From the NCBI GenBank assembly GCA_017347445.1, contig AP021856.1, positions 3,232,613-3,296,612 on the forward strand: 64,000 nucleotides of DNA. Reading direction: 5' to 3'. A program made the position numbers and the translations under genes. The number at the start of each line of letters is the position of its first letter. Position 1 is the first letter of the stretch. Positions 44,824 to 61,716 of the stretch are shown here, one piece after another. Below the pieces are notes generated by a model. The model saw only the letters and a list, made by a program, of their open reading frames with translations. It did not search any database and had not been told where the DNA came from. Origin of the DNA: Candidatus Brocadia pituitae. Its GTDB lineage: Bacteria > Planctomycetota > Brocadiia > Brocadiales > Brocadiaceae.

Positions 44824-46063
44824 TTAATCCCCTCCTTGTAAAGGAGGGGAAAGAGGGGTGGTTAATTTTGGTTGCGGCTTTGCTGCGTTCTGGCTTCTCC
44901 GCTCCGGGTTTTTACAACTTAACCACTCATTAAGCACATGAATAATATTTTCGGCAGCTTTTCCGTCACCATAGTATCGTCCATTATTATCCGACAGATC
45001 GTGTTGCCCTTTGTAATCTTTATAAAGTACATTCCAGCCGCTCTGGGTTGTCTCTACCCATTCCGTTTCGTTTCTCAGGGTAATACAAGGAACTTTAAGC
45101 CAATATGCCTCTTTTTGAATACCACCAGAATCGGTAAGGACACACTTGCTGTTTTTAAGCAACATTACCATATCAAAATATCCTAAAGGCTCAATACTGC
45201 TAACATTGTCTCTAAACTTTATCTTCATTGTCTCAAAGGCCTTTTTTGCCCTTGGGTGTACAGGAAATATGATTCTCGTGCCTGAAGATACATCATTCAC
45301 AAAATTTATTACCTCTTTCAGTCTTTCCTGGTCATCCGTATTCTCGGCGCGATGTATTGTCAAAAGACAGTAATCCTTTGATGAAACCTGCAATTGTTCC
45401 ATAATGTTTGAGCGTCTTGTTGCAATTTCTACCGCGTAGAGGAGGACGTCGTACATTACATCACCCACGTTAATAACGAAAGAAGTTGCGATGTCATCCG
45501 TGGCTTTATGGCATCGCGCATCAAAGGCATTGCACAGTTTTCCATCACTTAGAATGTTAGTAAAGCCTTCCCGCCGGAGGTTTCCAACTGCTGCCTCTGT
45601 TGGACATATGAGGATAGATGAGATATGGTCAGTAAGCACCCTGTTAATTTCTTCTGGCATATATTTGTTATAGCTTCTAAGACCAGCCTCTACATGCACT
45701 ATGGGAATATGGAGTATGGAGTTTTGAAGCGGCTAGCGCCCCACCCAGAGTTGAGTTTGTATCACCGTAGACTACAACGACGTCGGGTCTCTCTTTCAAA
45801 AGGACATCTTCCACTTTTTGAAGTATTTGCCCGGTTTGTGATCCATGAGAGCCAGAACCAACCCCAAGGTGGTAATGGGGTTCCTGAATTCCAAATTCGT
45901 CAAAAAAGATCTTAGACATGCTATAATCGTAATGCTGTCCTGTATGAATTAGTATATCCTGAACCACCATTTCAGAAGTGTTATTAAAATTTTTAATAGC
46001 TTCCGAAACAGGAAAATACTTAATAAATTGTGGTCGTGCACCAACGATATTTGCTATTTTCAT
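44824..46063 (-). pseudogene. UDP-N-acetylglucosamine 2-epimerase (WbpI/WecB family), frameshifted
   Basis: Two frames of one gene. Residues 1-118 (from 46063) read MKIANIVGARPQFIKYFPVS, HTGQHYDYSMSK, DVVVVYGDTNSTLGGALAAS. The rest (from about 45698) reads VHVEAGLRSYNKYMPEEINR, LLTIHRAENTDD, ILTDSGGIQKEAYWL-like CVLTDSGGIQKEAYWLKVPC and RYYGDGKAAENII. The break is an exact 7-bp tandem duplication (TATGGAG, 45708-45721); deleting one unit restores KLHIPIVHVEAG. The C-terminal 25 or so residues come from dispersed repeats. The enzyme would convert UDP-GlcNAc3NAcA to the manno form. It may be inactive, phase variable, or affected by an assembly error. Confidence 0.88.
44829..44849. terminator. 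GC-rich hairpin at the end of the epimerase gene
   Basis: Perfect 9-bp stem CCCCTCCTT / AAGGAGGGG with loop GTA, lying within the last codons of the epimerase reading frame. It belongs to the G-run/C-run repeat family. No clean T-run follows, so a terminator role is only possible. Confidence 0.35.
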
Positions 46064-46099: not shown

Positions 46100-47400
46100 T
46101 AAAAAACAAATCACAAATGATTATGAAATTCCAAATAACAAGCAACAAATTTCAAATAATATCCAAAATATGAAATAACAAATCCCAAACAACAAATTAC
46201 AAATAATCTACAAATTCCAATTTTCAAAATTCAAAACTGCATTATTCTGACTTTGTTTGGTAGTTTGGCAATTGTTTATTGGGATTTATTTGTTATTTGG
46301 ATATTGTTGTTTGATGCTTCATTTTTAAATTCCAAATGACAAGTACCAAATTACAAATAATTTCCAAAATTCAAATACCAAAGCTCAAATAATACGCAAA
46401 ATGTTAAATTCCAATACTCAAATAACAAAGAATTATGAAATTCCAAATAACAAGCAACAAATTTCAAATAATTTCCAAATTTTCAATTCTCAAAGTTCCA
46501 AACTCAGGTATTTCGACTCGGTGAGTCTTGTTTGGCAGTTTGGCAATTGTGCATTGGAATTTATTTGTTATTTGGATATTGTAATTTGATGCTTCATTTT
46601 TAAATTCCAAATGACAAGTACCAAATTACAAATAATTTCCAAAATTCAAATACCAAAGCTCAAATAATACGCAAAATGTTAAATTCCAATACTCAACCAA
46701 TTAAGAAATTCCAAATAACAAATAACAAATTTCAAATAATTTCCAAATTTCAATTTTCAAAATTCAAAACAGTATTCTGACTTTGTTTGGTAGTTTGGCA
46801 ATTGTTTATTGGGATTTATTTGTTATTTGGACATTGTAGTTTGGTGCTTTATTGAAAATTCCAAATGACAAATCCCAAATCACAAATAATATCCAAAATT
46901 CAAATACCAAAGCTCAAATAATACGCAAAATGTTAAATTCCAATACTCAACCAATTAAGAAATTCCAAATAACAAGCAACAAATTTCAAATAAGTTCCAA
47001 ATTTCAATTTTCAAAATTCGAAACTGTATTATTCTGACTTTGTTTGGTAGTTTGGCAATTGTTTATTGGGATTTATTTGTTATTTGGAGATTGTAGTTTG
47101 GTGCTTTATTGAAAATTCCAAATGACAAATCCCAAATCACAAATAATATCCAAAATTCAAATACCAAAGCTCAAATAATACGCAAAATGTTAAATTCCAA
47201 TACTCAACCAATTAAGAAATTCCAAATAACAAATAACAAATTTCAAATAATTTTCAAATTTCAATTCTCTAAATTCAAAACAGTATTATTCCGGCTTTGT
47301 TTGGTAGTTTGGCAATTGTGCATTGGAATTTATTTGGTATTTGGATATTGTAGTTTGGTGCTTTACTGTTAAATTCCAAATAATTTCCAAAATCCAATTT
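46100..47400. repeat. Dispersed CAAAT/ATTTG repeat block A (five long units)
   Basis: About 1.3 kb of diverged direct repeats, with a unit of about 250-275 bp. Each unit has an A-rich half (AAATTCCAAATAACAAGCAA ... CAAATAATTTCC) and a T-rich half (TTTGTTTGGTAGTTTGGCAA ... TTATTTGTTATTTGGATATTG). The TTTGTTTGG core occurs near 46253, 46527, 46785, 47037 and 47297. There is no coding sequence; short open frames are repeat translations. Confidence 0.85.
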
Positions 47401-47427
47401 TCAAAAGTCAAAAAGAAAGCATACAAG

Positions 47428-47529
47428 CTATGGAGATCTTTTCTTGTAAAAGCCCCATAGCAATTTACCAACTTCTGCTCTTACATTTTCAATTGCCGTA
47501 TATTCTCTTTCCGTTAAGTATCCGAAATC
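47428..47529 (-). pseudogene. Four-helix-bundle protein C-terminal scrap
   Basis: Reads DFGYLTEREYTAIENVRAEV then GKLLWGFYKKRSP and stops. The FGYL-x-EEY-x(n)-GKLL pattern is the C-terminal helix of four-helix-bundle (23S rRNA intervening-sequence type) proteins. A stop precedes it directly. The remaining 47530-47713 shows nothing recognisable. Confidence 0.45.
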
Positions 47530-47713
47530 TTAAATTCATTAAAGATACTTGACCTTTTTTATAGTTCACCAAAGTCATCATGTTGCCCCCGCAACACCCA
47601 GAAACGATGAAAATCGGATGTATTGCTGTATCATGAATCAATACTGATAGTTACGTTGTTTTTTGTGGCCTTATTTTCGAGCCAGAGACACAGAGAAAGA
47701 ATCATAACACATG

Positions 47714-48166
47714 TTATTTTGGCTGCTTTTTTAACAGATTAAAAACCCTGGCGCCAGTATGCTCTGCAACCTTGCAAAGGTTTTCATCCGCAGAGACAAA
47801 AAGCCAGTCACTTTCAGAAACCAAACTAAAACATCCGAGATGTAATGCATCCAATGTTCTAAGCCCGTGTTCCTTGCCGTGTTTTTTTAACAAGTCTTCT
47901 GCCTCTGGAACAATTGCGTGACTTAGGGGCTCGATATTGAAACGAGTGATTTCTGCCTCAAATCCGTCAATTGCGTCAACTAATGACTTTTCATCTATTT
48001 CTTTACTTCTAAACCTTCTGTGTAAAGCACTGATAAACTCCAGTCACGCCAATTCCAAAATCCAGGGTTCGCTCTCTTGAGAATTTAACAGGTCGGTAAT
48101 CGCCTCCGTGCCCACTTCATTATGGAAGAATTTTGCTAGCGCCGAGGTATCAAAGAATAGAATCAT
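47714..48166 (-). pseudogene. PIN-domain toxin with single nonsense codon
   Basis: A 150-codon PIN gene: ILFFDTSALAKFFHNEVGTE (first Asp), EPWILELA then TGA at codon 41 (48044-48046), then LEFISALHRRFRSKEIDEKS, GLRTLDALHLGCFSLVSESD (central Asp) and FVSADENLCKVAE. The family has Arg at the stop position (ELARLEFISAL), so one CGA to TGA change explains it. It overlaps its antitoxin by ATGA. The rest of the frame is undamaged, which suggests recent inactivation. Confidence 0.85.
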
Positions 48167-48393
48167 ATCCTATCTTCTCTTAGTGACTTTATATCATCAC
48201 TCAACGATCCTTTACATTGCTTTAAAGCCTTCCTAACCCTCAGATAAGCCGGTTCGCCTTCTTTGCTCTTCCTTTTTCGATGCCTCGCTTTCAAGGAAAT
48301 TATCATCTCATACACTGTCATCAATTCAGAATGACCTAATGATTCAAGTTCTTTTATTGTCTGTTCTTTTATTGTCTGTTCTTTTATTTTCAT
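48163..48393 (-). CDS. Antitoxin-like protein upstream of the broken PIN gene
   Basis: A 76-aa helical protein with ELESLGHSELMTVYEMIISL, KARHRKRKSKEG and LRVRKALKQCKGSLSDDIKS. The start region contains a 15-bp tandem repeat translated as KEQTIKEQTIKE. It ends in a 4-nt ATGA overlap with the PIN pseudogene, so it is now an antitoxin without a working toxin. Confidence 0.65.
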   Translation of the reverse strand: MKIKEQTIKEQTIKELESLGHSELMTVYEMIISLKARHRKRKSKEGEPAYLRVRKALKQCKGSLSDDIKSLREDRI

Positions 48394-48414
48394 GTAAATA
48401 CCTTACTTCAATCA

Positions 48415-48943
48415 CCAAAATTCAAAACGGTATTATTCCGGCTTTGTTTGACGATTTTGAGCTTTGTTCATTTCTGTTAAATTCCAATTTTCAAATCCCA
48501 AATAATTGAGAAATTCCAAATTACAAGTAACAAATTACAAATAATATCCAAAATCCAATTACCAAAATTCCAAACTCATGTATTTCGACTCTGTGAGTCT
48601 TGTTTGGCAGTTTGGCAATTGTGCATTGGAATTTATTTGTTATTTGGATATTGTTGTTTGATGCTTTACTGTTAAATTCCAAATGACAAATCTCAAATTT
48701 CAAATAATATCCAAAATATTAAATACCAAAACCCAAACAACAAATTCCAAATAATCTACAAATTCCAATTTTCAAAATTCAAAACTGTATTATTCTGACT
48801 TTGTTTGGTAGTTTGGCAATTGTGCATTGGAATTTATTTGTTATTTGGATATTGTAATTTGGTGCTTCATTTTTAAATTCCAAATGACAAATCACAAATT
48901 TCAAATAAAACACAAAATCCAATCACCAAAATTCAAAACAGTA
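48415..48943. repeat. Dispersed CAAAT/ATTTG repeat block B
   Basis: About 530 bp with three unit cores (near 48438, 48598 and 48799), between the antitoxin and the four-helix-bundle gene. The last unit ends exactly where the four-helix-bundle frame stops (GACTTTGCAAGTAT). Confidence 0.8.
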
Positions 48944-49309
48944 TTATTCTGACTTTGCAAGTATAGAAGAGAATATTTTTTTTAATTCAACTGCCTCATT
49001 GTGAAGCACCATACCCTCTTGCCCATACTTTTCATCATTCGTTTCTACAATTAACCTTTGCCAGTAGGCTGATTCTTTTGCTTCTTTACGGCATATCTTT
49101 ATCCTCATGATAAAATCTTTCTTACTCAACGATTCATTTGCTTCTATATAATTAGCACCAACTGACCCTGAAGCTCTGACTACTTGTTTTCCATATTCTA
49201 AGTTAGAAATGTTTTTTTGTAATTGTTTTACATAAAGAGCTACATTTTTCGCAAACTGAAATGTCCTCTCCTCCAAGTCATATTGTTTGTTCGTTTGGGT
49301 TTTGTTCAT
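48944..49309 (-). CDS. Four-helix-bundle protein (23S rRNA intervening-sequence protein family)
   Basis: A 121-aa helical protein: YDLEERTFQFAKNVALYVKQ, VVRASGSVGANYIEANESLS, KKDFIMRIKICRKEAKESAY. The SxxSVGANxxEAxxSxSKKDFxxxxxxxxKEAxES pattern is diagnostic of this family. The family is often found near polysaccharide genes and in rRNA intervening sequences; its function is unclear. The last residues are encoded by the edge of repeat block B. Confidence 0.92.
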   Translation of the reverse strand: MNKTQTNKQYDLEERTFQFAKNVALYVKQLQKNISNLEYGKQVVRASGSVGANYIEANESLSKKDFIMRIKICRKEAKESAYWQRLIVETNDEKYGQEGMVLHNEAVELKKIFSSILAKSE

Positions 49310-49618
49310 TGAATTTTATTTGTTATTTGAATATTGTAATTTGGTGCTTTTCAGTATTTAAATTCCAGAATGAAAGCATGCACTATGCATAACGCAGCAA
49401 GCCGCAACCAAATCCTCCGTCCTCCCCCTTTATCCCCCTCCGAAGGGGGAGAGGGGATGAAAAAAATTTCAAAAAAGAAAGATTTTATACGGAAGAAAGA
49501 ATAGGGTCAGACCTTGAAAATAAAATATAAAATCTGGTCAGGTCTCGATTCTTGACGTTTCTCATCCCTCTCTCCCGTTTAAATGTTCAGGGTTCAGAGT
49601 TCCAGGTTTCGAATTACC
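49310..49618. other. Intergenic stretch with repeat scraps and a C-run/G-run hairpin
   Basis: About 310 bp. It starts with one CAAAT/ATTTG scrap (to 49375) and continues with CGCAGCAAGCCGCAACCAAA. It has a hairpin TCCCCCTCCGAAGGGGGA at about 49433-49451 and GGGTCAGACCTTG words like those near REP-type transposases. No gene. Confidence 0.5.
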
Positions 49619-49903
49619 TTAATAAACTTCATCGTGTGTGCCAATTCCTATCAGGAAAATGTCCTCTTCTTTCTGAGTTTCACTTTTTACAAAATCAAAT
49701 ATTATCCTCAGGTCATAACCTACACTACATGCCCATGAATCCAATAATTTCCCTTTGAGTTTATGCGTTTCTAACTGTGGGGCGAATGGATCGTTAACCA
49801 GAAGTCTTAAGGTTTCCTCAATATCATTCAACCGAGACGGATGCTTCTTAATAGTTCGCTTAAATGCCCTTGTAAATGATTTACTCCAAATGAGTGCTCT
49901 CAT
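49619..49903 (-). CDS. RelE/YafQ-type mRNA interferase toxin
   Basis: A 94-aa ParE/RelE-fold toxin: LIWSKSFTRAFKRTIKKHPS, LETHKLKGKLLDSWACSVGY, DLRIIFDFV and FLIGIGTHDEVY. The HKLKGxLxxxWACxxxxDLRIIF pattern and the final GTHDEVY are typical of YafQ/RelE-like toxins that cut mRNA on the ribosome. It overlaps its antitoxin gene by 4 nt. Confidence 0.92.
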   Translation of the reverse strand: MRALIWSKSFTRAFKRTIKKHPSRLNDIEETLRLLVNDPFAPQLETHKLKGKLLDSWACSVGYDLRIIFDFVKSETQKEEDIFLIGIGTHDEVY

Positions 49904-50127
49904 GGAGAGAACTCTTTCATTAAATCATCGACTGTGCCTTTTTTTATCTCACCTCTTGCATATTCAGCTCGCGCTTCTTTAATATTACTCGCCAATTGCT
50001 CTCGTCTTTGTTCCGTTAATCTATGACGAATAATATGAATAAGGTCTTCCTGCTGATATTCAGGTAGTGACTCAATAATTTCTATAGCTTCCTGAAAGGT
50101 TATATTTTGCCGGTTAGAAATAGACAT
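49900..50127 (-). CDS. Antitoxin partner of the RelE-type toxin
   Basis: A 75-aa helical protein: TFQEAIEIIESLPEYQQEDL, IHIIRHRLTEQRREQLASNI, KEARAEYARGEIKKGTVDDL. The IExLPxxxQEDLxxIIxxRLxExRR plan with the EARxEYxxGExKxGTVDDLMxE tail is common in antitoxins for RelE/ParE toxins. The start has AAGGAGGACTTAAAAAAAATG upstream. Confidence 0.85.
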   Translation of the reverse strand: MSISNRQNITFQEAIEIIESLPEYQQEDLIHIIRHRLTEQRREQLASNIKEARAEYARGEIKKGTVDDLMKEFSP

Positions 50128-50224
50128 TTTTTTTAAGTCCTCCTTCTTTCAAAAAAAGATTGGGATCAGACCTTGGGAAATACTTGGGGTCAACCTTTAA
50201 TGCAAGCGTGAAAGCAGGCAATCG

Positions 50225-50687
50225 GGCGAACATATCAGCATTCAAAGTATGAAATACCAAAGCTCAAATAACAAAGAATTATGAAATTCCAAATAACAAA
50301 TCTCAAATTTCAAATAATTTCCAAATTCCAATTCTCTAAATTCAAGACGGCATTATTCCAGCTTTGTTCGGCAGTTTGGCAATTGTACATTGGAATTTAT
50401 TTGGTATTTGGATATTGTTGTTTGATGCTTCATTTTTAAATTCCAAATAACAAGCAACAAATTTCAAATAATTTCCAAAAATCCAATTTTCAAAATTCCA
50501 AACAGTATTATTCCGGCTTTGTTTGGTAGTTTGGCAATTGTTTATTGGGATTTATTTGTTATTTGGAGATTGTAGTTTGATGCTTCATTTTTAAATTCCA
50601 AATGACAAGTACCAAATTCCAAATAATTTCCAAATTCCAATTCTCAATATTACAAATTTCAAATAAAACATAAAATCCAGCGTGCGG
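50225..50687. repeat. Dispersed CAAAT/ATTTG repeat block C
   Basis: About 460 bp with two to three units (cores near 50365 and 50518). It lies between the RelE-type module and the next PIN module. 50128-50224 upstream of it holds GGGATCAGACCTTGG and GGGGTCAACCTTTAA words only. Confidence 0.8.
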
Positions 50688-51140
50688 TTATTTAATAATA
50701 TCATCGAGAACTATGACTTTAATTTCCTTTATTTTTTTGAGGCTGCTGTCATTGGTTATAAAGACTTTTGCCCCATTAACTAAACCAGATACCAATTGAA
50801 TTGCATCGGGTATTTTTATCTTATATTTGACTCTTAATTTAGCACTTTCAACAGCCACACACCTGTCCATATCAGTCAATATTAGATTATTTGAATTAGT
50901 CAGCAGGTCTTCATATTCATTCATGAGTCCTTTATTTTTTTCTTCTATGGGCTTGGCGAAAACTTCAATTAAAGTGATAAATGAAGTATAAGCAGTAATA
51001 TAACCTTGACTTATATAGGAAAATAAAGGGTCAACGGCTTCAATGTATTTTTTATACTCTTCAATATAGTAAATGAACGGCGCTGTATCTATGAAAACTG
51101 AATCTATTCCCTTCAAGAGTGTAACAAGCTTCAAATCCAC
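50688..51140 (-). CDS. PIN-domain toxin
   Basis: A 150-aa PIN nuclease: GIDSVFIDTAPFIYYIEEYK (first Asp), FITLIEVFAKPI (Glu), IKIPDAIQLVSGLVNGAKVF (central Asp) and ITNDSSLKKI (ND). All acidic positions appear intact. It overlaps the antitoxin (51131-51355) by 10 nt. Confidence 0.88.
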   Translation of the reverse strand: MDLKLVTLLKGIDSVFIDTAPFIYYIEEYKKYIEAVDPLFSYISQGYITAYTSFITLIEVFAKPIEEKNKGLMNEYEDLLTNSNNLILTDMDRCVAVESAKLRVKYKIKIPDAIQLVSGLVNGAKVFITNDSSLKKIKEIKVIVLDDIIK

Positions 51141-51355
51141 TCCTCTCTCAGTTTATTTACATATTCCTGTGCATCTATTCCCTCCCAGATTTCTTTTCCA
51201 CACCCCCTGAGTTCTGTGATACTATGCTTTTTGTGTGTCCCTTCGATGCCGGTCTTCAGTAATCTTACTACTTCTAATATTTTTTTTTGTTGTGGTATCG
51301 GAAGACTTTTAATTTCTTCTACTATCTTTTTTTCTATTGGTATAGACGATTTCAC
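51131..51355 (-). CDS. Antitoxin partner of PIN toxin
   Basis: A 74-aa protein: IEKKIVEEIKSLPIPQQKKI, LEVVRLLKTG and WEGIDAQEYVNKLREEWI. The LPxxQQxxxLEVVRxL plan with a short acidic, tryptophan-ended tail matches DUF2281-like antitoxins of PIN toxins. It overlaps the toxin start by 10 nt. Confidence 0.78.
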   Translation of the reverse strand: MKSSIPIEKKIVEEIKSLPIPQQKKILEVVRLLKTGIEGTHKKHSITELRGCGKEIWEGIDAQEYVNKLREEWI

Positions 51356-51384
51356 TTTTTAAATCTCCTTTTGCAAGCAAGTAT

Positions 51385-51850
51385 TTGTGGTCAGACCCTG
51401 AATATAGAAAACAGAATTCAGCCCACAATATCCAAAATATGAAATTCCAAATAACAAATCTCAAATTTAAAATAATTTCCAAATTCCAATTCTCAAAATT
51501 CCAAACTCAGGCATTCCGACCCTGTAAGTATTGTTTTGCAATTTGGGTTTTGTTTATTGGGATTTATTTGGTATTTGGATATTGTTGTTTGGTGCTTCAT
51601 TTTTAAATTCCAAATGACAAGTACCAAATTTCAAATAATTTCCAAATTTCAATTCTCAAAATCACAACAGTATTATTCCGGCTTTGTTTGGTAGTTTGGC
51701 AATTGTGCATTGGAATTTATTTGGTATTTGGACATTGTAGTTTGATGCTTCATTTTTAAATTCCAAATGACAAGTACCAAATTCCAAATAATTTCCAAAA
51801 ATCCAATTTTCAAAATTCCAAACAGCATTATTCCGGCTTTGTCAATATCA
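51385..51850. repeat. Dispersed CAAAT/ATTTG repeat block D
   Basis: About 465 bp with three unit cores (near 51530, 51678 and 51838). It lies between the PIN module at 50688 and the broken PIN gene at 51897. Confidence 0.8.
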
Positions 51851-51896
51851 CACGATAGATTCTCATTCTATTTTCTCTTTGCGCTTTCATCTTCCC

Positions 51897-52305
51897 TCAT
51901 GTTTTTACTTTCAGCCAGTTTTCGACTTTCAGTCCATCTATTCTTTTAAAATGGTATTCATTATTTGTTATAAGGACTGCGCCATGTTCCATTACAATAC
52001 TTGCAATCAGAATGTCCGCATCGTTAAGAAGATTTCCACTTTTCTTAAGAGCGGCGTATATTCCTCCTCCCGTCCAGGAAGATCCATACGACGCTTCCAA
52101 CATGATAGAGGCATTAACTACCCGCTCAATAAAATCTTCTTCCTTATATTTTCCACTCGAACATATACCCTTAAAAAAACTCGTATACAGTAAGCCATGT
52201 TAATCCTAATGAGTCATCTTCACCGAGGGTTTCAATCTTATTTTTGATAGCTTCATTCCCTCTAAAATATTCAATAATGATATCCGTATCAAGGCAATAT
52301 ATCAA
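51897..52305 (-). pseudogene. PIN-domain toxin with homopolymer frameshift
   Basis: Read from a TTG at 52305: LIYCLDTDIIIEYFRGNEAI, then DDSLGLTWLTVYEFF, where a run of seven T (A7 at 52173-52179 on the plus strand) gives TAA. With six T the frame continues KGICSSGKYKEEDFIERVVN, LLNDADILIASIVMEHGAVL and ITNNEYHFKRIDGLKVENWL. This is a complete VapC-type PIN protein apart from the one-base shift. A homopolymer sequencing error, natural phase variation or true decay are all possible. Confidence 0.85.
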
Positions 52306-52556
52306 AGTTTGATTTCTCCCCTCTCAGAATGGTTTCTTTCTTTAAGGATGTCTTTGAAGATGTTAATCTCTTCATCGCTTTTCTCTCTCCAGATACCGAA
52401 AAGAGCTAAAAAATCATTTTTGTCAAACCTTGATGCATCTACAATTACTCTAAGTTTCTTCCCTTGCCTGAGGGATAACCTGTCTGCAATTTCCTTGGGC
52501 ATTGACAAGTGGCCATCATTTAAATATTCTGCTGTGTATGCTGCTTTGTGCCCCAT
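52302..52556 (-). CDS. AbrB-like antitoxin
   Basis: About 84 aa from the ATG at 52556, chosen for the AAAGGAG site upstream. TAEYLNDGHLSMPKEIADRL, SLRQGKKLRVIVD is the swapped-hairpin AbrB pattern; SDEEINIFKDILKERNH is the toxin-binding tail. Its stop overlaps the TTG start of the PIN pseudogene (TTGA). Confidence 0.8.
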   Translation of the reverse strand: MGHKAAYTAEYLNDGHLSMPKEIADRLSLRQGKKLRVIVDASRFDKNDFLALFGIWREKSDEEINIFKDILKERNHSERGEIKL

Positions 52557-52714
52557 TTTAAACTCCTTTCTCAACTAAATAAGTAGCAGGATGCATTTTA
52601 TACCTGTCTTATTGAATATCTCGGAAATTCCTGTTAAGTCATATTGTTCATGGTTCCGGGTTTAGGGTTAAGATGGTTCGTCATTGCTCACCACTGGATT
52701 AACTACAGAGACAC

Positions 52715-53585
52715 TAATAAATAGTTAAATTCCAAAACTTAAATCACAAATAATTATGAAATTCCAAATGACAAGTACCAAATTACAAATAATTTCCAAA
52801 TTTCAATTTATAAAATCAAAAACATTTCTTTGCGCTCTTTGCGTCTCTGCGTGAGCCATTCTGTTTTCCTCTCGCCAAGCCGCAAAGCACGCCAAGAAAG
52901 ACAAATACTATTAGCCACAAAGAAAATACATCAACCACGGATTACACAGATTGCACGGAGTATTTAAATTGCAAATCCCAAATAATTTCCAAACTCCAAT
53001 TCTCTAAAATGCAAAACTGTATTATTCCGGCTTTGTTTGGCAGTTTGGCAATTGTTTATTGGGATTTATTTGGATATTGTAATTTGGTGCTTCATTTTTA
53101 AATTCCAAATGACAAGTACCAAATTACAAATAATTTCCAAACTGCAATTTCCAAAATTCAAAACAGTATTCTGACTTTGTTTGACCGTTTTGGGTTTTTG
53201 TTCATTGGGATTTATTTGTTATTTGGATATTGTATTTTGGTGCTTTACTGTTAAATTCCAAATGGCAAGCAACAAATTACAAATAATTTCCAAACTGCAA
53301 TTTCCAAAATTCAAAACAGTATTCTGACTTTGTTTGACCGTTTTGGGTTTTTGTTCATTGGGATTTATTTGTTATTTGGATATTGTATTTTGGTGCTTCA
53401 TTTTTAAATTCCAAATGACAAGTACCAAATTACAAATAATTTCCAAACTGCAATTTCCAAAATTCAAAACAGTATTCTGACTTTGTTTGACCGTTTTGAG
53501 TCTTGTTTATTGGAATTTATTTGTTATTTGGATATTGTATTTTGATGCTTTACTGTTAAATTCCAAATTTCAATTTTTATTAGTC
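52715..53585. repeat. Dispersed CAAAT/ATTTG repeat block E
   Basis: About 870 bp. Begins with one unit, then CTTTGCGCTCTTTGCGTCTC and GCCAAGCCGCAAAGCACGCC words (52825-52895), then four units with cores near 53030, 53178, 53330 and 53480. The last three are about 150 bp apart. It ends at the stop of the UDP-sugar dehydrogenase gene. Confidence 0.8.
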
Positions 53586-53592
53586 TTATGTC

Positions 53593-54897
53593 TTATGCCC
53601 TTTTTACTTTATCGGGATAACCAGTATGATTTTTTATGAGATTCCTTGTGTCAACGATTACGTTGGAATGTTTCAGGATGAAATCAGGGTCGTAATCAGC
53701 ATGCGCGGTTGCAATAACAACCGCATCATATTTCGCAAGATTCTCTGCTCGTAAAGGAACTGAACAATTGTCAAATGAGTATTTCCTTAATTTCGGGAGA
53801 ATGGGTATATACGGGTCGTTATAGTCAACATGGGCATCTTTCTCCTCAAATAGCTCCATGATCTTCAGCGAGGGCGATTCACGGGTGTCGTCTATATCCT
53901 TTTTATAAGAAAGTCCCAGAATTAAAATCTTTGCGCCCTTAATGCTTTTCCCTTTCTCATTGAGCGCATCAATGGTTTTCTGTACCACATAATAAGGCAT
54001 ATTGGTATTTATTTCCCCCGCAAGCTCGATAAACCGGGTGGAAAACTCGTATTCCCTCGCCTTCCAGGTTAAATAAAAGGGATCGATCGGTATGCAATGC
54101 CCACCAAGCCCCGGGCCCGGATAAAATGCCTGAAACCCAAAGGGTTTTGTGTTCGCCGCCTCTATGACCTCCCATACGTCAATTTCCATCCTGTCGAAAA
54201 GCATCTTCAGTTCGTTTACCAGCGCTATATTCACCGCTCTATAGATATTCTCAAGGAGTTTTGCGGCCTCTGCAACTTTTGTTGAAGAAACCGGCACGGT
54301 CTTTACCACTACCGAATCATAAAGGGCCTTTGCAACGGTAAGACAAGTATTTGTATAACCGCCAACCACCTTCGGGATGGTGCGTGTTGAAAAATCCTTA
54401 TTATTCGGATCTTCCCGCTCCGGTGAAAACGCAAGATAAAAATCCTCACCTGCTTTTAACCCAGACTCCTCCAGTATGGGTCTCATGTCCTCATCCGTAG
54501 TGCCGGGATACGTCGTTGATTCAAGGATAATAAGCTGCCCCTTGCGGAGATTTCCGGCAATAGTCTTTGTTGTGTTAAAGACATATGACATATCGGGTTC
54601 CCGGTATTTGTTCAGCGGTGTCGGGACACAGATGATGATGCAATCCATAGCCGGCAGCTTCGAAAAATCCGTGGTGGGGATGAAACGCGACCCGTGAGCC
54701 GTGATCCGTGAACCGTCAATGTGTTTGATGTAGCTCTTGCCCTGGCTCAGTAATTGTATCTTTTCAGGATCGATGTCAAAGCCGGTCACCTGAAACCCTG
54801 CCTTGCAGAATTCAATGACCAGTGGCAATCCCACATAACCGAGGCCGATGACGCCAATCTGTGCTTCTTTAGATGCAATTTTTTCAATGAGTTTCAT
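53593..54897 (-). CDS. UDP-N-acetyl-D-glucosamine 6-dehydrogenase family (WbpA-like)
   Basis: NAD-dependent nucleotide-sugar dehydrogenase that oxidises C6 of a UDP-HexNAc to the uronate. About 434 aa from the ATG at 54897; the open frame runs 17 codons further into repeat DNA. It has GVIGLGYVGLPLVIEFCKAG (NAD site), VPTPLNKYREPDMSYV, ILESTTYPGTTDE, FSPEREDPNN, the catalytic cysteine in GPGLGGHCIPIDPFYLTWKA and ILGLSYKKDIDDTRESPSL. The GGHCIPIDP and YREPDMSYV forms fit the UDP-GlcNAc/WbpA subgroup. Codons near residue 70 (GSRITAHGSRF) resemble a dispersed GGATCACGGCTCACGG repeat. It is probably step one of the diacetamido-uronate pathway. Confidence 0.92.
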   Translation of the reverse strand: MKLIEKIASKEAQIGVIGLGYVGLPLVIEFCKAGFQVTGFDIDPEKIQLLSQGKSYIKHIDGSRITAHGSRFIPTTDFSKLPAMDCIIICVPTPLNKYREPDMSYVFNTTKTIAGNLRKGQLIILESTTYPGTTDEDMRPILEESGLKAGEDFYLAFSPEREDPNNKDFSTRTIPKVVGGYTNTCLTVAKALYDSVVVKTVPVSSTKVAEAAKLLENIYRAVNIALVNELKMLFDRMEIDVWEVIEAANTKPFGFQAFYPGPGLGGHCIPIDPFYLTWKAREYEFSTRFIELAGEINTNMPYYVVQKTIDALNEKGKSIKGAKILILGLSYKKDIDDTRESPSLKIMELFEEKDAHVDYNDPYIPILPKLRKYSFDNCSVPLRAENLAKYDAVVIATAHADYDPDFILKHSNVIVDTRNLIKNHTGYPDKVKRA

Positions 54898-54899
54898 AG

Positions 54900-55190
54900 C
54901 TGTTTTAAGAAATTCCAAATGACAAATAACAAATTTCAAATAATACACAAAGTATTAAATTCCAATACTCAAATACCAAAATTTAAATAATTATGAAATT
55001 CCAAATAACAAGCAACAAATTACAAATAATTTCCAAAATATGAAATAACAAATCCTAAAACCCAAATCCTAAATAATATCCAAACTTCAATCACCAAAAT
55101 TCAAAACTGTATTATTCTGACTTTGTTTGGTCGTTTGGCAATTGTGCATTGGGATTTATTTGGTATTTGGATATTGTTGTTTGGTGCTTT
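54900..55190. repeat. Diverged repeat units leading into the 154-bp array
   Basis: About 290 bp of CAAAT-rich repeat with one T-rich core (near 55125), more diverged than the array that follows. It directly abuts the start of the UDP-sugar dehydrogenase gene, so any leader of that gene is repeat DNA. Confidence 0.8.
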
Positions 55191-56650
55191 ACTGTGAAAT
55201 TCCAAATGACAAGCAACAAATTACAAATAATTTTCAAATTTCAATTCTCTAAATTCAAAACAGCATTATTCCGGCTTTGTTTGGTAATTTGGCAATTGTG
55301 CATTGGGATTTATTTGGTATTTGGATATTGTTGTTTGGTGCTTTACTGTGAAATTCCAAATGACAAGCAACAAATTACAAATAATTTTCAAATTTCAATT
55401 CTCTAAATTCAAAACAGCATTATTCCGGCTTTGTTTGGCAGTTTGGCAATTGTTCATTGGAATTTATTTGGTATTTGGATATTGTATTTTGGTGCTTTAC
55501 TGTGAAATTCCAAATGACAAGCAACAAATTACAAATAATTTCCAAATTTCAATTCTCTAAATTCAAAACAGCATTATTCCGGCTTTGTTTGGCAGTTTGG
55601 CAATTGTGCATTGGAATTTATTTGTTATTTGGATATTGTTGTTTGGTGCTTTACTGTGAAATTCCAATACTCAAATCCCAAATTACAAATAATTTCCAAA
55701 TTTCAATTCTCTAAATTCAAAACAGCATTATTCCAGCTTTGTTTGGTCGTTTGGCAATTGTGCATTGGGATTTATTTGGTATTTGGATATTGTTGTTTGG
55801 TGCTTTACTGTGAAATTCCAAATGACAAGCAACAAATTACAAATAATTTTCAAATTTCAATTCTCTAAATTCAAAACAGCATTATTCCGGCTTTGTTTGG
55901 TAGTTTGGCAATTGTGCATTGGGATTTATTTGTTATTTGGATATTGTTGTTTGGTGCTTTACTGTGAAATTCCAAATAACAAGCAACAAATTACAAATAA
56001 TTTCCAAATTTCAATTCTCTAAATTCAAAACAGCATTATTCCGGCTTTGTTTGGCAGTTTGGCAATTGTTTATTGGGATTTATTTGATATTTGGATATTG
56101 TATTTTGGTGCTTTACTGTGAAATTCCAAATGACAAGCAACAAATTACAAATAATTTCCAAATTTCAATTCTCTAAATTCAAAACAGCATTATTCCGGCT
56201 TTGTTTGGTAGTTTGGCAATTGTGTATTGGAATTTATTTGGTATTTGGATATTGTTGTTTGGTGCTTTACTGTGAAATTCCAAATGACAAGCAACAAATT
56301 ACAAATAATTTCCAAATTCCAATTCTCTAAATTCAAAACAGCATTATTCCAGCTTTGTTTGGCAGTTTGGCAATTGTGCATTGGGATTTATTTGGTATTT
56401 GGATATTGTTGTTTGGTGCTTTACTGTGAAATTCCAAATGACAAGCAACAAATTACAAATAATTTCCAAATTTCAATTCTCTAAATTCAAAACAGCATTA
56501 TTCCGGCTTTGTTTGGTAGTTTGGCAATTGTGCATTGGGATTTATTTGTTATTTGGATATTGTTGTTTGGTGCTTTACTGTGAAATTCCAAATAACAAGC
56601 AACAAATTACAAATAATTTCCAAATTTCAATTCTCTAAAGTCAAAACAAA
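55191..56650. repeat. Tandem array of 154-bp repeats (nine exact periods plus a partial)
   Basis: The word ACTGTGAAATTCCAAAT recurs from 55191 to 56577 at an exact 154-bp period (nine periods, 1386 bp), with a tenth partial unit to 56650. Units differ by only a few bases. Each has an A-rich half (CAAGCAACAAATTACAAATA) and a T-rich half (GGCTTTGTTTGGCAGTTTGG), which are loosely complementary, so one unit could fold on itself. The period is not a multiple of three, so the overlapping 85-codon open frames are artefacts. It lies between the Wzz-kinase and the dehydrogenase genes. Confidence 0.95.
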
Positions 56651-56665
56651 AGTTACCGGTATGCG

Positions 56666-59194
56666 CTATCCGTAATAATAGTCTCCTGTCTTTGCCTGAT
56701 TTAAGATGGCGCCAAGGATACGGGCGTTATTCTCCTTCATACAGGTTGTGACTTTATTAATTGCTTCGACAGGAACCTGCCCTGACTTAACCACAAAGAT
56801 TACCCCGTCAGCAAAGTTCAACAATGGCATCGCAGTATTCATGGCCTCCATCATCGGCGGGGCGTCCACGAGCACCACATCGCATTGCTGTTTCAGGAGA
56901 TACAGGAACTTTGAAAGAAGACCAAAGTATATGGGGCTGTCAGGGTTTACATGGCCTGCACCAACAGGCAAGAGTGATATGTTCGAACCATTTATCTGCT
57001 GAACGTGTGAAAACAACTCTCGCTTCAACAGACGACTTCCCGCTGTATTCCCCAGACGCCTGACAATCGGTGCGTAATCCTCAGCAAAGTAGATTTTCTT
57101 ATCTTCGTAAATTTCTATATCGCCTGCCTCAAAGGTAAAGCTACCCTGTTTCCAACTAAAAAGCTTCTGGAGGTGTTCCTCCATCTGGAGTTTTAATGGC
57201 CCTTTGAGTTGCTCCTGGTTCACGTATCCGGCATTGATCAGGATATATCCAAGCGGTAAGCCCGTGCGCTGGTTCCTTTCCAGCGCGTCTTTTAACTGAT
57301 CCTCAGTGATGAAACCCCCACGGAGGAGCATGGCTCCCAAACGGTTGGCAAACGGGGTATCGTTACTTTGGATTTGAAATAAACAACCATTTTGAAAGAG
57401 GACGGTTATGCCCAGGGTATCATTAGTGACAACGAGCTGCCCGCTGAGCTTTTTCAGGGCAATGATGGAAAAGAGGTCATCCACACTGTAGTCTTTTAAA
57501 TTACCCTGCATAATATTTTTTGACAGTACCCCTTCCATGGCATTGAGCAATCCATGTGCCCCGCCGTTCTCTGTCCCAAACACCTGATGTAATGACGGAT
57601 GGTGAAGGTCGGCATCTACCATGATCACGCGTAGGCCCCCTTTCGCCAGGTTTATTGCCAACTTTGCCAGGACGGTAGTCTTCCCTTCGCCCTTCATTGT
57701 ACTTTCCACCACATACACGTGTCCATGCATACCTGATTGCATCAGGGGTAATCTGGCAACGAAGTTACCTGAAATATTGTATAATGCGTATCCTTCTTTC
57801 GCCAGCTTTTGTCCGCCGCGGTGCGATTCGTTTCCTGGCAGGGCGAGTGTTTTGTTTCTCTTTAATGACCTGTCATAGGGTATTACCCCCAGTACCGGCA
57901 GCCTCAAATGTTTGGCAGCATCTTCCGGTGTTCGCACGGTCTTGTCCATATATTCAAGGAAAAAGGCTAGTCCCACACCAAAGGTCAAACCCACGATAAT
58001 AGAGAGGAGTGTATTTAACAGAATACGTGGTTTGAATGTGGAAATGGGCACTTCCGCCTCATCCACGATGCGGATATTGCTCTTTTTCATGTTACCGGTA
58101 AGGTTGACTTCTTTTGCCTGTGTGAGCAGGATATCATAAATCACCTTGTCGCTTTCGGCCTCCAGGCGCACCATATCATAGTTTACGGCCTTTTCGGTTT
58201 GAGGTTTTACGGTATCGTGCGGGAGATGCCGGTTTTGCTGATTGGCCTTTTCAATCGCTGCTATCCGGTTCAGTTCCGTCCTGATGGCCTTCCGTATCGA
58301 TTGTATCTCATGGATGATCCCCTCTTCCAGCTTTCCGATGCCGTTATCGATCTCGATGATTTTGTGATGTTTGGGGCCATACCTGGTGACCAGGATCGAT
58401 CGTTCCGCCTTCAGGTTGCCTAATTGGTTGTGCAGATTCCTGATGATGACGTTCTGCTCAACTTCCGGTATGGAAAAGATGCTTTCGTCATCGATGGTAA
58501 ATGACCGTAGCTGCTTGTACTTATATTCATACGCCGCCTTCTGCGAAGTCCCCACCTTCATCTTTTGCGCAGAAAGTTGATCCTTGAACCAGTCCAGTGC
58601 CTGCTGGGAGGCCAGTTGCTGGATATGATTGTTCCGCTCAATGAATGCCCGGGCGTGGGTATTCGCAATGAGTGCGGCCTTTTCCGGCGATGGATGCTGA
58701 AAACTGATATCAACCAGGTGGGTCTCACGCAAAGGAGAGATCTCCAGATTTTTCAGGTACCACTTGATGATCCGGGGGTCGCTCCTGATGTCTGATTGAT
58801 CAGATGCATTGCCGGATAATGCGTCCTGCTCTTTTGTGCTTCTGTCATCCTCTAATTTACAGTCCTTCCAGAGTTCCAATTCTTCGATAACGCCCTTTGC
58901 AAGACTCCTGCTCACGAGGAGTTTGTATTGTGTCTGGTAGTAGCTCTTATTTTGAACGTCAGAATTCATATTCACCTTTGAGACATCCGCCATCTCATTC
59001 AGGAGTGAATCAGTATTTTCTATCATAAGCTGCGTGGTTGCCTTATAGATGGGCGTAGAACGAAGCGACCCCACGACAACGGTGATAACCACGGTCAGGA
59101 AGAAGATGATAACGACCCATTTCCGTTTTCTGATGACATTGAGATAGTCGACTAAATGTACGTCCTGCTGTAATGGCATTTGTTGGTCAGGCAT
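56666..59194 (-). CDS. Wzz/BY-kinase chain-length regulator with inserted DUF4388/MshEN-like segment
   Basis: An 842-aa polysaccharide co-polymerase and tyrosine autokinase that sets EPS chain length. A Wzz domain (membrane helices at about 27-43 and 391-413, coiled coil between) is followed by a kinase with Walker A around STMKGEGKTT (498-507), Walker A' VIMVDADLHHP (523-533), Walker B VVLVDAPPM (773-781) and a C-terminal YYY (839-841). Between A' and B an extra 130 residues (about 565-695) look like DUF4388 (LKKLSGQLVVTNDTLGITVL ... FSWKQGSFTFEAGD). Inside it two 24-residue motifs start at R618 and P647 with a 5-residue spacer, as in MshEN c-di-GMP domains. It is intact. Confidence 0.93.
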   Translation of the reverse strand: MPDQQMPLQQDVHLVDYLNVIRKRKWVVIIFFLTVVITVVVGSLRSTPIYKATTQLMIENTDSLLNEMADVSKVNMNSDVQNKSYYQTQYKLLVSRSLAKGVIEELELWKDCKLEDDRSTKEQDALSGNASDQSDIRSDPRIIKWYLKNLEISPLRETHLVDISFQHPSPEKAALIANTHARAFIERNNHIQQLASQQALDWFKDQLSAQKMKVGTSQKAAYEYKYKQLRSFTIDDESIFSIPEVEQNVIIRNLHNQLGNLKAERSILVTRYGPKHHKIIEIDNGIGKLEEGIIHEIQSIRKAIRTELNRIAAIEKANQQNRHLPHDTVKPQTEKAVNYDMVRLEAESDKVIYDILLTQAKEVNLTGNMKKSNIRIVDEAEVPISTFKPRILLNTLLSIIVGLTFGVGLAFFLEYMDKTVRTPEDAAKHLRLPVLGVIPYDRSLKRNKTLALPGNESHRGGQKLAKEGYALYNISGNFVARLPLMQSGMHGHVYVVESTMKGEGKTTVLAKLAINLAKGGLRVIMVDADLHHPSLHQVFGTENGGAHGLLNAMEGVLSKNIMQGNLKDYSVDDLFSIIALKKLSGQLVVTNDTLGITVLFQNGCLFQIQSNDTPFANRLGAMLLRGGFITEDQLKDALERNQRTGLPLGYILINAGYVNQEQLKGPLKLQMEEHLQKLFSWKQGSFTFEAGDIEIYEDKKIYFAEDYAPIVRRLGNTAGSRLLKRELFSHVQQINGSNISLLPVGAGHVNPDSPIYFGLLSKFLYLLKQQCDVVLVDAPPMMEAMNTAMPLLNFADGVIFVVKSGQVPVEAINKVTTCMKENNARILGAILNQAKTGDYYYG

Positions 59195-59529: not shown

Positions 59530-61716
59530 CCCACATTTTTTACTGGACAAATCATGGTGGAGATAATGAATGGGGGGTTAGTTCTGTAACAAAAACTTTC
59601 CACATAGCGGTCATATCATCAAGTCTTTGTATCCCAAGCCAAAGCGTTTTTGTTCCCGGTTCACCATCCCCTTTTCGGCCTAAAAAACCACCTAAACTCG
59701 CCACCATTCGAACCGCTTCCCTTAAACTCGGTGGATTTGAAGGTGGAGTCGGATTTTGGGTTTTGTACGCAAGGAGTGCCTTCCATTCTGCTTCTTCAAA
59801 AAATACGGTACAGGGAACATCCGGTACTTCCCTGCCAAGTTTCGTTAAATAATAGATCCGCCATGCCACTACCATATCGATTGCCAGACACGCTTCTATG
59901 CGATCGGCATTTCCCAGTTGCCTTTGTTCTATTTGACAACCACTCTTTAACGTCTTATGGTAAACCTCTATACCCCATCGCCTGGCATACCATTCCAGCT
60001 TCTCCACGGATTCTTCAAACGTATCCACCGGGATTGTCGTTAACAACATCCATTTGAGTGGGGTTGTTGATTCCGGTGCATTTTCTTCCACCGCCAGTAT
60101 TGCATAAACCTTCAGAGGGCCTTTTGCTCGTTTCCCTGGGGGAGCTTTCAATTCCACCGCTCCATAACGGATTACCAATTCCGCTTCCCGTGACGGCTGA
60201 TTTCCCTTTCGGGGAATCCTGATCCGCTGAATCCCGCTCACGGGACGACTGTCTATATACCCCCACAATCGCTCCTGTTCATGGAACAGACTACGATTAT
60301 GCTCCGCACGAACTAACAACTTCGGATTCCCTGTGCCTGCCATGGCTAATTCAAATAATTCATAAATATCCGCCTCTCTGTCTCCGACACTGACGATAAC
60401 GGTTTTCGGACACTGCTTTTGGATTTCCGCCACCGAGCTGAAACTCACCAGCCATTTGTTGCTCTCTTTCTCTTCTATGGGTAGTTTATGGCGCTGATGT
60501 TTCTTGCCATAGTTCTCTTTGTCCCTCGCCCAGCACTGCACATTCATCAGCCCCAGCGGCGTCCCCTCCCGGTTAAATGCCATCGTATCATGCACCATGA
60601 GCCCGATTACCTCTTCTCCCCTTGAACTAATCGGTCCAAGATTCTCGGTCGCCGGATGCAAACTATAATTCAAACTCGTTGTGTCCTGTATCGCCAACAC
60701 CACCTCTTCTTCCCTGATTCGATTCACGGTTGACTGATAATGTGCACTCAGGATGGTTTCCATGGTACTTGCCTTGTTATCCAAAAATCGATATGCCGCT
60801 TTCGTTCTTGCACGGCTTTGGCATGCCTGCGGAATATTCGCCCGGGGGTTCGCATAAAAATCACGGGCCATCTCTCTCAGCCTGATGGTCAACCGCAAGT
60901 CCCCCAGATTCGCATTCCCGAACTCTTCTTCCGCCCAGTCACAATGCCCCCTCACTTCTACGGCTTCCTTCGCCTGCCCTTCACACAAACGCTCCCTTGC
61001 ATCGGAATATAACGGATAAAGATAGATGTCTTTGACCGGCAGCCTATACTCATTCCCAGCATCCTGTCTCCCTCGTCCCTGCGTCGTTCCTACATGCTGA
61101 AAATTTGCCGCCTGATAACAGGTACCCAAAAACCTTCCTTTCTCTACAAAGGTCTCCACCAGTACCGGTGCATCACCATTTTGTTCCGCCCAGTCCCTCT
61201 TCATCTGCCTCAGACTCTTTGACAATACCCAGGATGCCAGGTTCTTCACTTTCACCCAGGGCGCTATCAAAAAACGACTGTTACAGACAATGCGGTTTAA
61301 ATATCTTAACCGGTTTTCTTCATTCCACCCTATCCATTCCTCTCTCGCCCTCAAACGCCACGCCGGGGAACTGAATGATACCGCTCCTATCAAACCATAT
61401 TTCTCGCTCCTCACTAAATACCTCATCTGTTTCCCGTATAATGTCCCCTGTCCTAAATAATGGTATCGCTCTATCATTGCCTTCCAATGGGGATACTTCT
61501 CGTCTCTCGAATTATATACCCTGACAAGCTCGATTTCACCAAGTTCCTCTAAACAACACTCTATCCCGGACTCTTCTGATTCACACGCCTGTTCCTGATT
61601 CCCGGTTCGATCCGGCAACCTGTTTGTTCGGCTCTCTTCTGGAAAACTATCTGCATTTTGTTTCATGCACCACAGCTTAACCAATCAGGAGGCTTTTGTC
61701 CAGTAAAAAATGTGGG
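59530..61716 (-). mobile_element. IS4-family (Tn5-like) insertion sequence with DUF4338 cargo domain (2187 bp)
   Basis: Perfect 22-bp terminal inverted repeats at 59530-59551 and 61695-61716 (outer end CCCACATTTTTTACTGG). One long gene fills the element. I see no convincing target duplication: the flanks are TTATCTTTA and ACATGTTAA. The flanks both carry C-run/GTAAAC repeat words, so the insertion may be in, or have recombined with, such a repeat. Confidence 0.9.
59552..61666 (-). CDS. Fusion: DUF4338 (DruA-like) domain + Tn5-type IS4 transposase
   Basis: About 704 aa from the ATG at 61666 (a TTG at 61684 adds six; numbers below use that frame). Residues 50-240 are DUF4338: HWKAMIERYHYLGQGTLYGK, WIGWNEENRLRYLNRIVCNS, RFLIAPWVKVKNLASWVLSK, GTCYQAANFQHVGTTQGRGR. 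Residues 249-305 are the Tn5 transposase DNA-binding domain (WAEEEFGNANLGDLRLTIRL, ARTKAAYRFLDN). The DDE core follows, with D334 (IQDTTSLNY), D435 (VSVGDREADIYEL) and E573 in the Y-R-E-K block RRWGIEVYHKTLK. The D435-E573 spacing (138) equals that of Tn5. The C-terminus matches its dimerisation region. It is intact, likely active. Confidence 0.9.
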   Translation of the reverse strand: MKQNADSFPEESRTNRLPDRTGNQEQACESEESGIECCLEELGEIELVRVYNSRDEKYPHWKAMIERYHYLGQGTLYGKQMRYLVRSEKYGLIGAVSFSSPAWRLRAREEWIGWNEENRLRYLNRIVCNSRFLIAPWVKVKNLASWVLSKSLRQMKRDWAEQNGDAPVLVETFVEKGRFLGTCYQAANFQHVGTTQGRGRQDAGNEYRLPVKDIYLYPLYSDARERLCEGQAKEAVEVRGHCDWAEEEFGNANLGDLRLTIRLREMARDFYANPRANIPQACQSRARTKAAYRFLDNKASTMETILSAHYQSTVNRIREEEVVLAIQDTTSLNYSLHPATENLGPISSRGEEVIGLMVHDTMAFNREGTPLGLMNVQCWARDKENYGKKHQRHKLPIEEKESNKWLVSFSSVAEIQKQCPKTVIVSVGDREADIYELFELAMAGTGNPKLLVRAEHNRSLFHEQERLWGYIDSRPVSGIQRIRIPRKGNQPSREAELVIRYGAVELKAPPGKRAKGPLKVYAILAVEENAPESTTPLKWMLLTTIPVDTFEESVEKLEWYARRWGIEVYHKTLKSGCQIEQRQLGNADRIEACLAIDMVVAWRIYYLTKLGREVPDVPCTVFFEEAEWKALLAYKTQNPTPPSNPPSLREAVRMVASLGGFLGRKGDGEPGTKTLWLGIQRLDDMTAMWKVFVTELTPHSLSPP

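Follow-up and report, generated by a model that had tools for sequence, protein, structure and literature searches.

What is the tandem repeat that lies between two EPS genes of Candidatus Brocadia pituitae, where did it come from, and does it affect the genes on either side? The window (i.e. the whole stretch of 64,000 nucleotides that was analysed) contains the UDP-sugar dehydrogenase gene ugd at 53593-54948 (PF03721, 1.3e-44), with a likely start codon near 54897, and a gene for a Wzz/tyrosine-kinase-like chain-length protein at 56666-59194 (PF02706, PF13807). Both are encoded on the minus strand and the array fills the interval between them, as the first-pass annotation had recognized. The kinase gene ends at 56666, 17 bp from the array, and the likely start of ugd comes shortly after it on the other side.

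Tandem Repeats Finder (TRF) reports a 154-bp period across 55071-56648, with 10.2 copies and 94% matches. Placed in register, the array comprises nine full units (55197-56582) at a constant spacing of 154 bp, with partial units on both sides. Read along the plus strand, each full unit consists of an A-rich arm (the A arm), a core and a T-rich arm (the T arm). At the left end (54911-55196) there are two partial A arms and a unit truncated on its A side, while at the right a tenth, partial unit (56583-56648) is a 66-nt A arm only. We assign all of these to the minus strand, i.e. the sense strand of the gene from which, as discussed below, the core is derived. The nine units had been described as exact, perfect periods. 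The number and the constant spacing stand, but exactness is too strong a word, since pairs of units differ at 1-16 bases and 20 of the 154 columns are variable. The 85-aa frames on the plus strand overlap from unit to unit as an arithmetical consequence of the 154-bp period, and a scan of the window against Rfam at gathering thresholds matched no known RNA family.

The origin of the unit is indicated by a gene in the same island. An intact gene encoding an IVP (S23-type, four-helix-bundle) protein of 121 aa lies on the minus strand at 48944-49309. It matches PF05635 (8.6e-13), which is the 23S rRNA-intervening-sequence protein family, the four-helix-bundle subfamily TIGR02436 (4.4e-18), and a relative of solved structure (2rld, E 1.8e-12). 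The gene is flanked by both kinds of arm, similarly oriented on the minus strand; an A arm (48876-48939) abuts the stop codon on the downstream side, and a T arm (49284-49354) holds the start codon and the upstream leader. Alignment of the units to this intact element leaves one large gap. On a first pass, nine of 15 units shared the same gap of 328 nt, and in a scan of all junctions 22 of 25 units in the window, including all nine of the array, were best fitted by one 328-nt deletion. The product of this common junction is the leader and the first 26 nt of the IVP gene, joined to the CAAAGTCAGAATAA end, and these 22 units are 77-86% identical to the predicted product over their whole length. 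The units are thus hollow, retaining only the ends of the gene (i.e. the first 26 nt and the last codons); the 24-30 nt core that does not follow the heptad pattern of the arms is the IVP gene end. The exact core string is found at 17 places, the IVP gene itself included. That the array units carry both ends of an IVP gene was missed in the first-pass annotation. The remaining three of the 25 units, all of them dispersed (46438-46596, 48512-48672 and 51443-51599), have a different core in place of the IVP remnant, and in two of them there is a GACTC...GAGTC mini-palindrome.

We consider it most likely that the 154-bp unit is a hollow, MITE-like, internally deleted derivative of an S23/IVP hairpin element that has been multiplied locally. 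The full element would comprise the IVP gene, an arm of CAAATNN heptads before the start codon and a reverse-complementary arm after the stop codon. One copy would have lost 328 nt of the gene through short CAAA-type microhomology, leaving a founder whose arms enclose a fusion of the leader, the start codon with about 26 nt, and the final codons up to and including the stop. The founder would then have multiplied in the EPS and toxin-antitoxin island, with all copies in the same orientation and chiefly through block duplication or unequal recombination. The opposite history, whereby a gene was inserted into a pre-existing hollow unit, should give the same alignment; judged from the sequences it is disfavoured, and only by the remnants in a sister species and by the general link between IVP genes and arms that is described below. 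Deletion from an IVP element is the simpler history because the junction is shared and because deletions have occurred repeatedly, and differently, in the congener G003. Three copies in the G003 island have the same 164-nt deletion (element nt 150 to 314), and two others have deletions from 71 to 332 and from 93 to 372.

The units of the array are not equally related to one another. Those at lag 4 are among the most alike, with a mean of 4.4 differences compared with 7.5, 7.9 and 8.2 at lags of 1, 2 and 3 respectively; at lag 6 the mean is 4.3, over three comparisons. The partial tenth unit is identical to the sixth (at 55967) over 57 of 57 nt. Taken together, the likeness at lag 4 and this identity suggest that the array grew by duplication of blocks of four units (616 bp) through unequal recombination. 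This supports the earlier proposal of a recent local amplification, and it was also correctly observed that the dispersed copies, at 46127-53556, are more diverged than the array.

These dispersed copies all run A-then-T on the plus strand, and are likewise assigned to the minus strand. At 46127-47413 there are arms and hollow units, of which some form a 257-bp tandem subset. Further hollow units adjoin the intact IVP element (48512-48869), lie amid small genes of toxin-antitoxin type (50284-50650) and occur at 51443-51823, and an arm and hollow units with a 153-bp tandem subset are found directly downstream of ugd (52760-53556). When arms were mapped with profiles of the A and T halves, every repeat-bearing gap of the island (46127-56648) proved to consist of A and T arms that share one orientation, and an A arm stands at both ends of nearly all such gaps. 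The home genome is a single contig of 4.08 Mb; loci akin to that of its ugd protein include those of Candidatus Kuenenia hertensis and Planctomycetia bacterium H5_AMX3, as would fit an anammox planctomycete of the Brocadiales. A BLAST search of 39 genomes with the unit gave 39 matches in the home genome; among those listed, all but one fall within 3278783-3289260, i.e. the EPS and toxin-antitoxin island of about 10 kb. Three successive heptads of the pattern AAATNNC occur 17 times in the forward direction and once in reverse in this genome, with none for the reversed-pattern control. One orientation at one locus fits local amplification better than it does transposition.

A homologous island is present beside ugd in G003. 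Its arms are similar in kind and with few exceptions share one orientation, and genes of toxin-antitoxin type lie between them. The repeat there has another form, and the kinase is absent next to ugd.

IVP genes are widespread. PF05635 was matched in 55 of 59 Brocadiales genomes and in none of 14 controls, in 26 of 40 genomes of other groups, and in 75 of 99 genomes of the phylum of G372. The arms of each gene were tested by aligning the upstream 150 nt to the reverse complement of the downstream 150 nt, with a threshold score of 24, the 99th percentile of 503 other ORFs. For Brocadiales 110 loci were taken from the top of the matches listed (30 given, 79 in list order, and that of the window), leaving out L241 and one match at a contig edge; L217, L237 and two loci with short flanks were then dropped to give 106. 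The median score of these 106 listed loci was 28, compared with 15 for swapped pairs, 15 for shuffles and 16 for the other ORFs. Sixty-one of them scored above 24, and the other 45 are below the threshold, some showing no arms. Complementarity was found in 17 of 30 loci in a second set (all of which were scored) and in 11 of 26 in a third, from which three of 29 had been dropped for want of an ATG and in which the rate for swapped pairs was 1.5%. Many IVP genes thus lie between matching arms, and they do so in several phyla.

Strong periodicity was found in 71 of 274 IVP flanks and in no shuffled flanks, and in 50 of the 71 it is at a lag of 7 or 14. Reading of the flanks reveals that the word varies widely from copy to copy (e.g. 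TCAGGAG, CTGAAGG, GTTTAGG and CAAATNN). Among 303 pairs of related IVP genes (at least 55% identity), both arms have changed in 95. In 46 of these 95 pairs, which are not independent of one another, the two arms of each element have remained complementary (median score 32 for own arms and 14 for cross-pairing). A related heptad pattern is present in 42 of 62 genomes within the order, in 39 of the 294 sampled from the phylum, and in 12 of 49 that were reached via other loci.

Sites with and without an element can be compared at a gene having a DPPY methylase motif. Sixteen of 17 such loci (L242-L258) were classified, L252 being unmatched by the motif. The distance between two conserved motifs is 48-60 nt in five genomes, in which the site is empty; an IVP element occupies it in seven (452-483 nt), and in four genomes there are other small inserts of 99-102 nt. 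This loop of the DNA methylase appears to be a hot spot for insertion, and two of the four small inserts carry a CATTGCGAGTGGAACGAAGCAATC-type repeat. The flanks of IVP loci L286, L292 and L305, from outside this phylum, resemble the same loop by eye (GEPDI ... VDVFHP-like). A Mod-like gene is likewise interrupted by an IVP element (L140; PF01555, 1.7e-13). In L132 and L165 an IVP element separates cas1 from cas2 (both Cas1 and Cas2 being matched in Pfam), and in L149 one is found beside cas1 (Cas1 matched in Pfam). Inspection by eye places an IVP gene at cas1/cas2 or beside cas1 in the Brocadiales loci L135, L163, L167 and L194 also.

MITEs and REPINs are short, hairpin-forming derivatives of a longer element that carry no coding sequence. 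The window element resembles MITEs in that the ends are kept while the interior is deleted, 22 of 25 units having one junction. It differs in several respects. Neither a transposase nor a target duplication was seen, empty sites having been compared at the methylase gene, and no mobility machinery was identified for the window element; its full form carries the IVP gene; and in the home genome the copies are confined almost wholly to one island of 10 kb.

A closer comparison is with intervening sequences of 23S rRNA. In the sections of the Coxiella study that treat this element, the S23p gene lies in a stem-loop within 23S rRNA that is cut by RNase III, two or three GACAGAT heptamers (depending on strain) precede its start codon, and one strain has an internal deletion of 176 bp (PMC4990558). 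The S23p-coding sequences of Coxiella and Leptospira share with the window element an S23/IVP gene inside complementary borders, and that of Coxiella also shares tandem heptamers before the start codon and a known internal deletion (PMC4990558). By contrast, the window element lies outside rRNA genes, between ugd and the kinase in the EPS and toxin-antitoxin region, and it has CAAATNN words on both sides and hollow copies, both tandem and dispersed. As read from its sequence, it is by gene and by plan a relative of the S23-type intervening sequences, which RNase III excises without ligation; its location outside any rRNA gene means that it is not strictly one of them. We infer that intact elements spread as hairpins in the manner of the 23S rRNA intervening sequences.

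Other heptamer repeats have been reported. Intergenic direct repeats of (TAACTGA)n are abundant in Beggiatoaceae, where the word is fixed, the arrays are direct and, in the opening of the abstract, they are not described as paired arms around IVP genes (PMC4679880). The literature searched on anammox repeats, heptanucleotides and palindromic elements provided analogues only, and that searched on IVP genes contained no description of word-variable paired arms around them outside rRNA.

On balance we lean towards a general reading in which S23/IVP genes are the cargo of widespread selfish palindromic elements, the 23S rRNA intervening sequences being a special case. Each copy would have its own short-period word (most commonly of 7 nt), repeated in inverted arms directly adjoining the start and stop codons. 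Insertion, into genes such as those of DNA methylases and between cas1 and cas2, followed by decay to hollow hairpins through internal deletion, would seed heptad repeats in many environmental genomes, including the present array. If this is correct, then words turn over and yet the arms remain complementary, so that something must renew the match; this could be pairing as RNA or as single strands, or copying from arm to arm. That raises the question of which strand does the pairing, and by what protein or copying step the arms are kept matched. Proteins of the IVP family (PF05635) are common and have no known function. They resemble Avd of diversity-generating retroelements, and their genes are reported next to DGR and CRISPR domains, in the relevant part of one study (PMC10053308); 18 were counted in cas loci in part of an earlier one (PMC3936711). 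If each gene does travel in its own word-specific hairpin, such cas and DGR neighbourhoods may reflect insertion rather than partnership, and the origin of one class of environmental-genome repeats would be explained.

Does the array do anything where it is? The halves of each unit are complementary, A-rich and then T-rich, as had been noted, and 20 of 23 units fold better as hairpins on the plus strand than on the minus (median z -4.2 versus -2.1). For the EPS genes and the IVP gene alike, plus is the antisense strand. For intact IVP flanks the sense strand gives the better pairing in 92 of 137 cases. Units and intact flanks thus prefer opposite strands, so that neither strand is clearly selected, and selection for an RNA on one strand was rejected. 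The suggestion that the units contain phased A-tracts and might be a bending site did not survive a curvature check on the unit; the heptads have a period of 7, which differs from that of the helix, and the value for phasing at 10.5 bp is 0.45, within the range of shuffles (95th percentile 0.50). A promoter or terminator role was rejected too, the region between kinase and ugd having one promoter-like site, compared with 10.4 in shuffles, and no intrinsic terminator-like sites. With such signals scarcer than in shuffles or absent, A-tracts unphased and the stronger hairpins antisense, the most likely view is that the array is selfish or relic DNA, transcribed through as part of the EPS message and of little consequence, while some effect on ugd is possible. 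A more active role, in which tandem hairpins of the EPS mRNA undergo cutting or stabilize the transcript and copy number tunes ugd, is unlikely. It would suit an array that takes up the entire space between two genes of one orientation, with units predicted to form hairpins, and the S23-type elements of 23S rRNA are indeed cut by RNase III. However, the hairpins that the array forms in the sense orientation (the minus strand) are weak (z -2.5 to +0.5), terminators are absent and promoter-like sites fewer than in shuffles, and the sister species has a different repeat and no kinase beside ugd.

The setting of the dispersed copies might suggest recombination sites of an integron-like cassette system, the toxin-antitoxin genes being cassettes and the array a run of empty ones. 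Toxin-antitoxin, PIN and IVP genes do lie between co-oriented imperfect palindromes, as in attC arrays, and two cassettes (673 and 293 bp) are common to the window and G003 islands at 91-95% DNA identity in other relative places. The home genome also encodes two IntI-like integrases that exceed the TIGR02249 cut-off, both at a distance from the window. Yet GTTRRRY and RYYYAAC are absent from all nine units on both strands, attC-like pairs are not in excess in the window (1 and 1, compared with 0-2 in shuffles) or near the integrases, and the IVP gene already accounts for the unit ends. With the core sites absent we reject an attC identity, and find a cassette system of this kind improbable; plain homologous recombination between the repeats is possible. 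Around each integrase-like gene (1436084-1437019 and 1779440-1780186 of the home genome) no attC-like pairs were found in the surrounding 18 kb. Least probable of all, to the point of being nearly negligible, is a plain heptad microsatellite expanded by slippage, with a coincidental link to IVP. The arms are degenerate heptads, and heptad words are common in several phyla. But the core is an IVP gene end, amplification has been in blocks of 154 and 616 bp rather than in steps of 7 bp, and complementary arms are far more common at IVP flanks than at the 503 other ORFs.

We note some further features close to the repeats and in another genome. Beside the repeat island a UDP-GlcNAc 2-epimerase is divided over two overlapping ORFs (44824-46063 of the window), which match different parts of PF02350. 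A single ORF (59552-61684), located between the kinase and a WbpM-like gene, contains a DruA domain and Tn5-type transposase domains. In genome G013, four loci (L116, L117, L123 and L124) are solo CAAAT hairpins with the common loop CAGTATGATTTGGAG or one close to it. The CAGTATGATTTGGAG loop would translate as QYDLE, as at the start of IVP, and these hairpins are possibly independent hollow elements.
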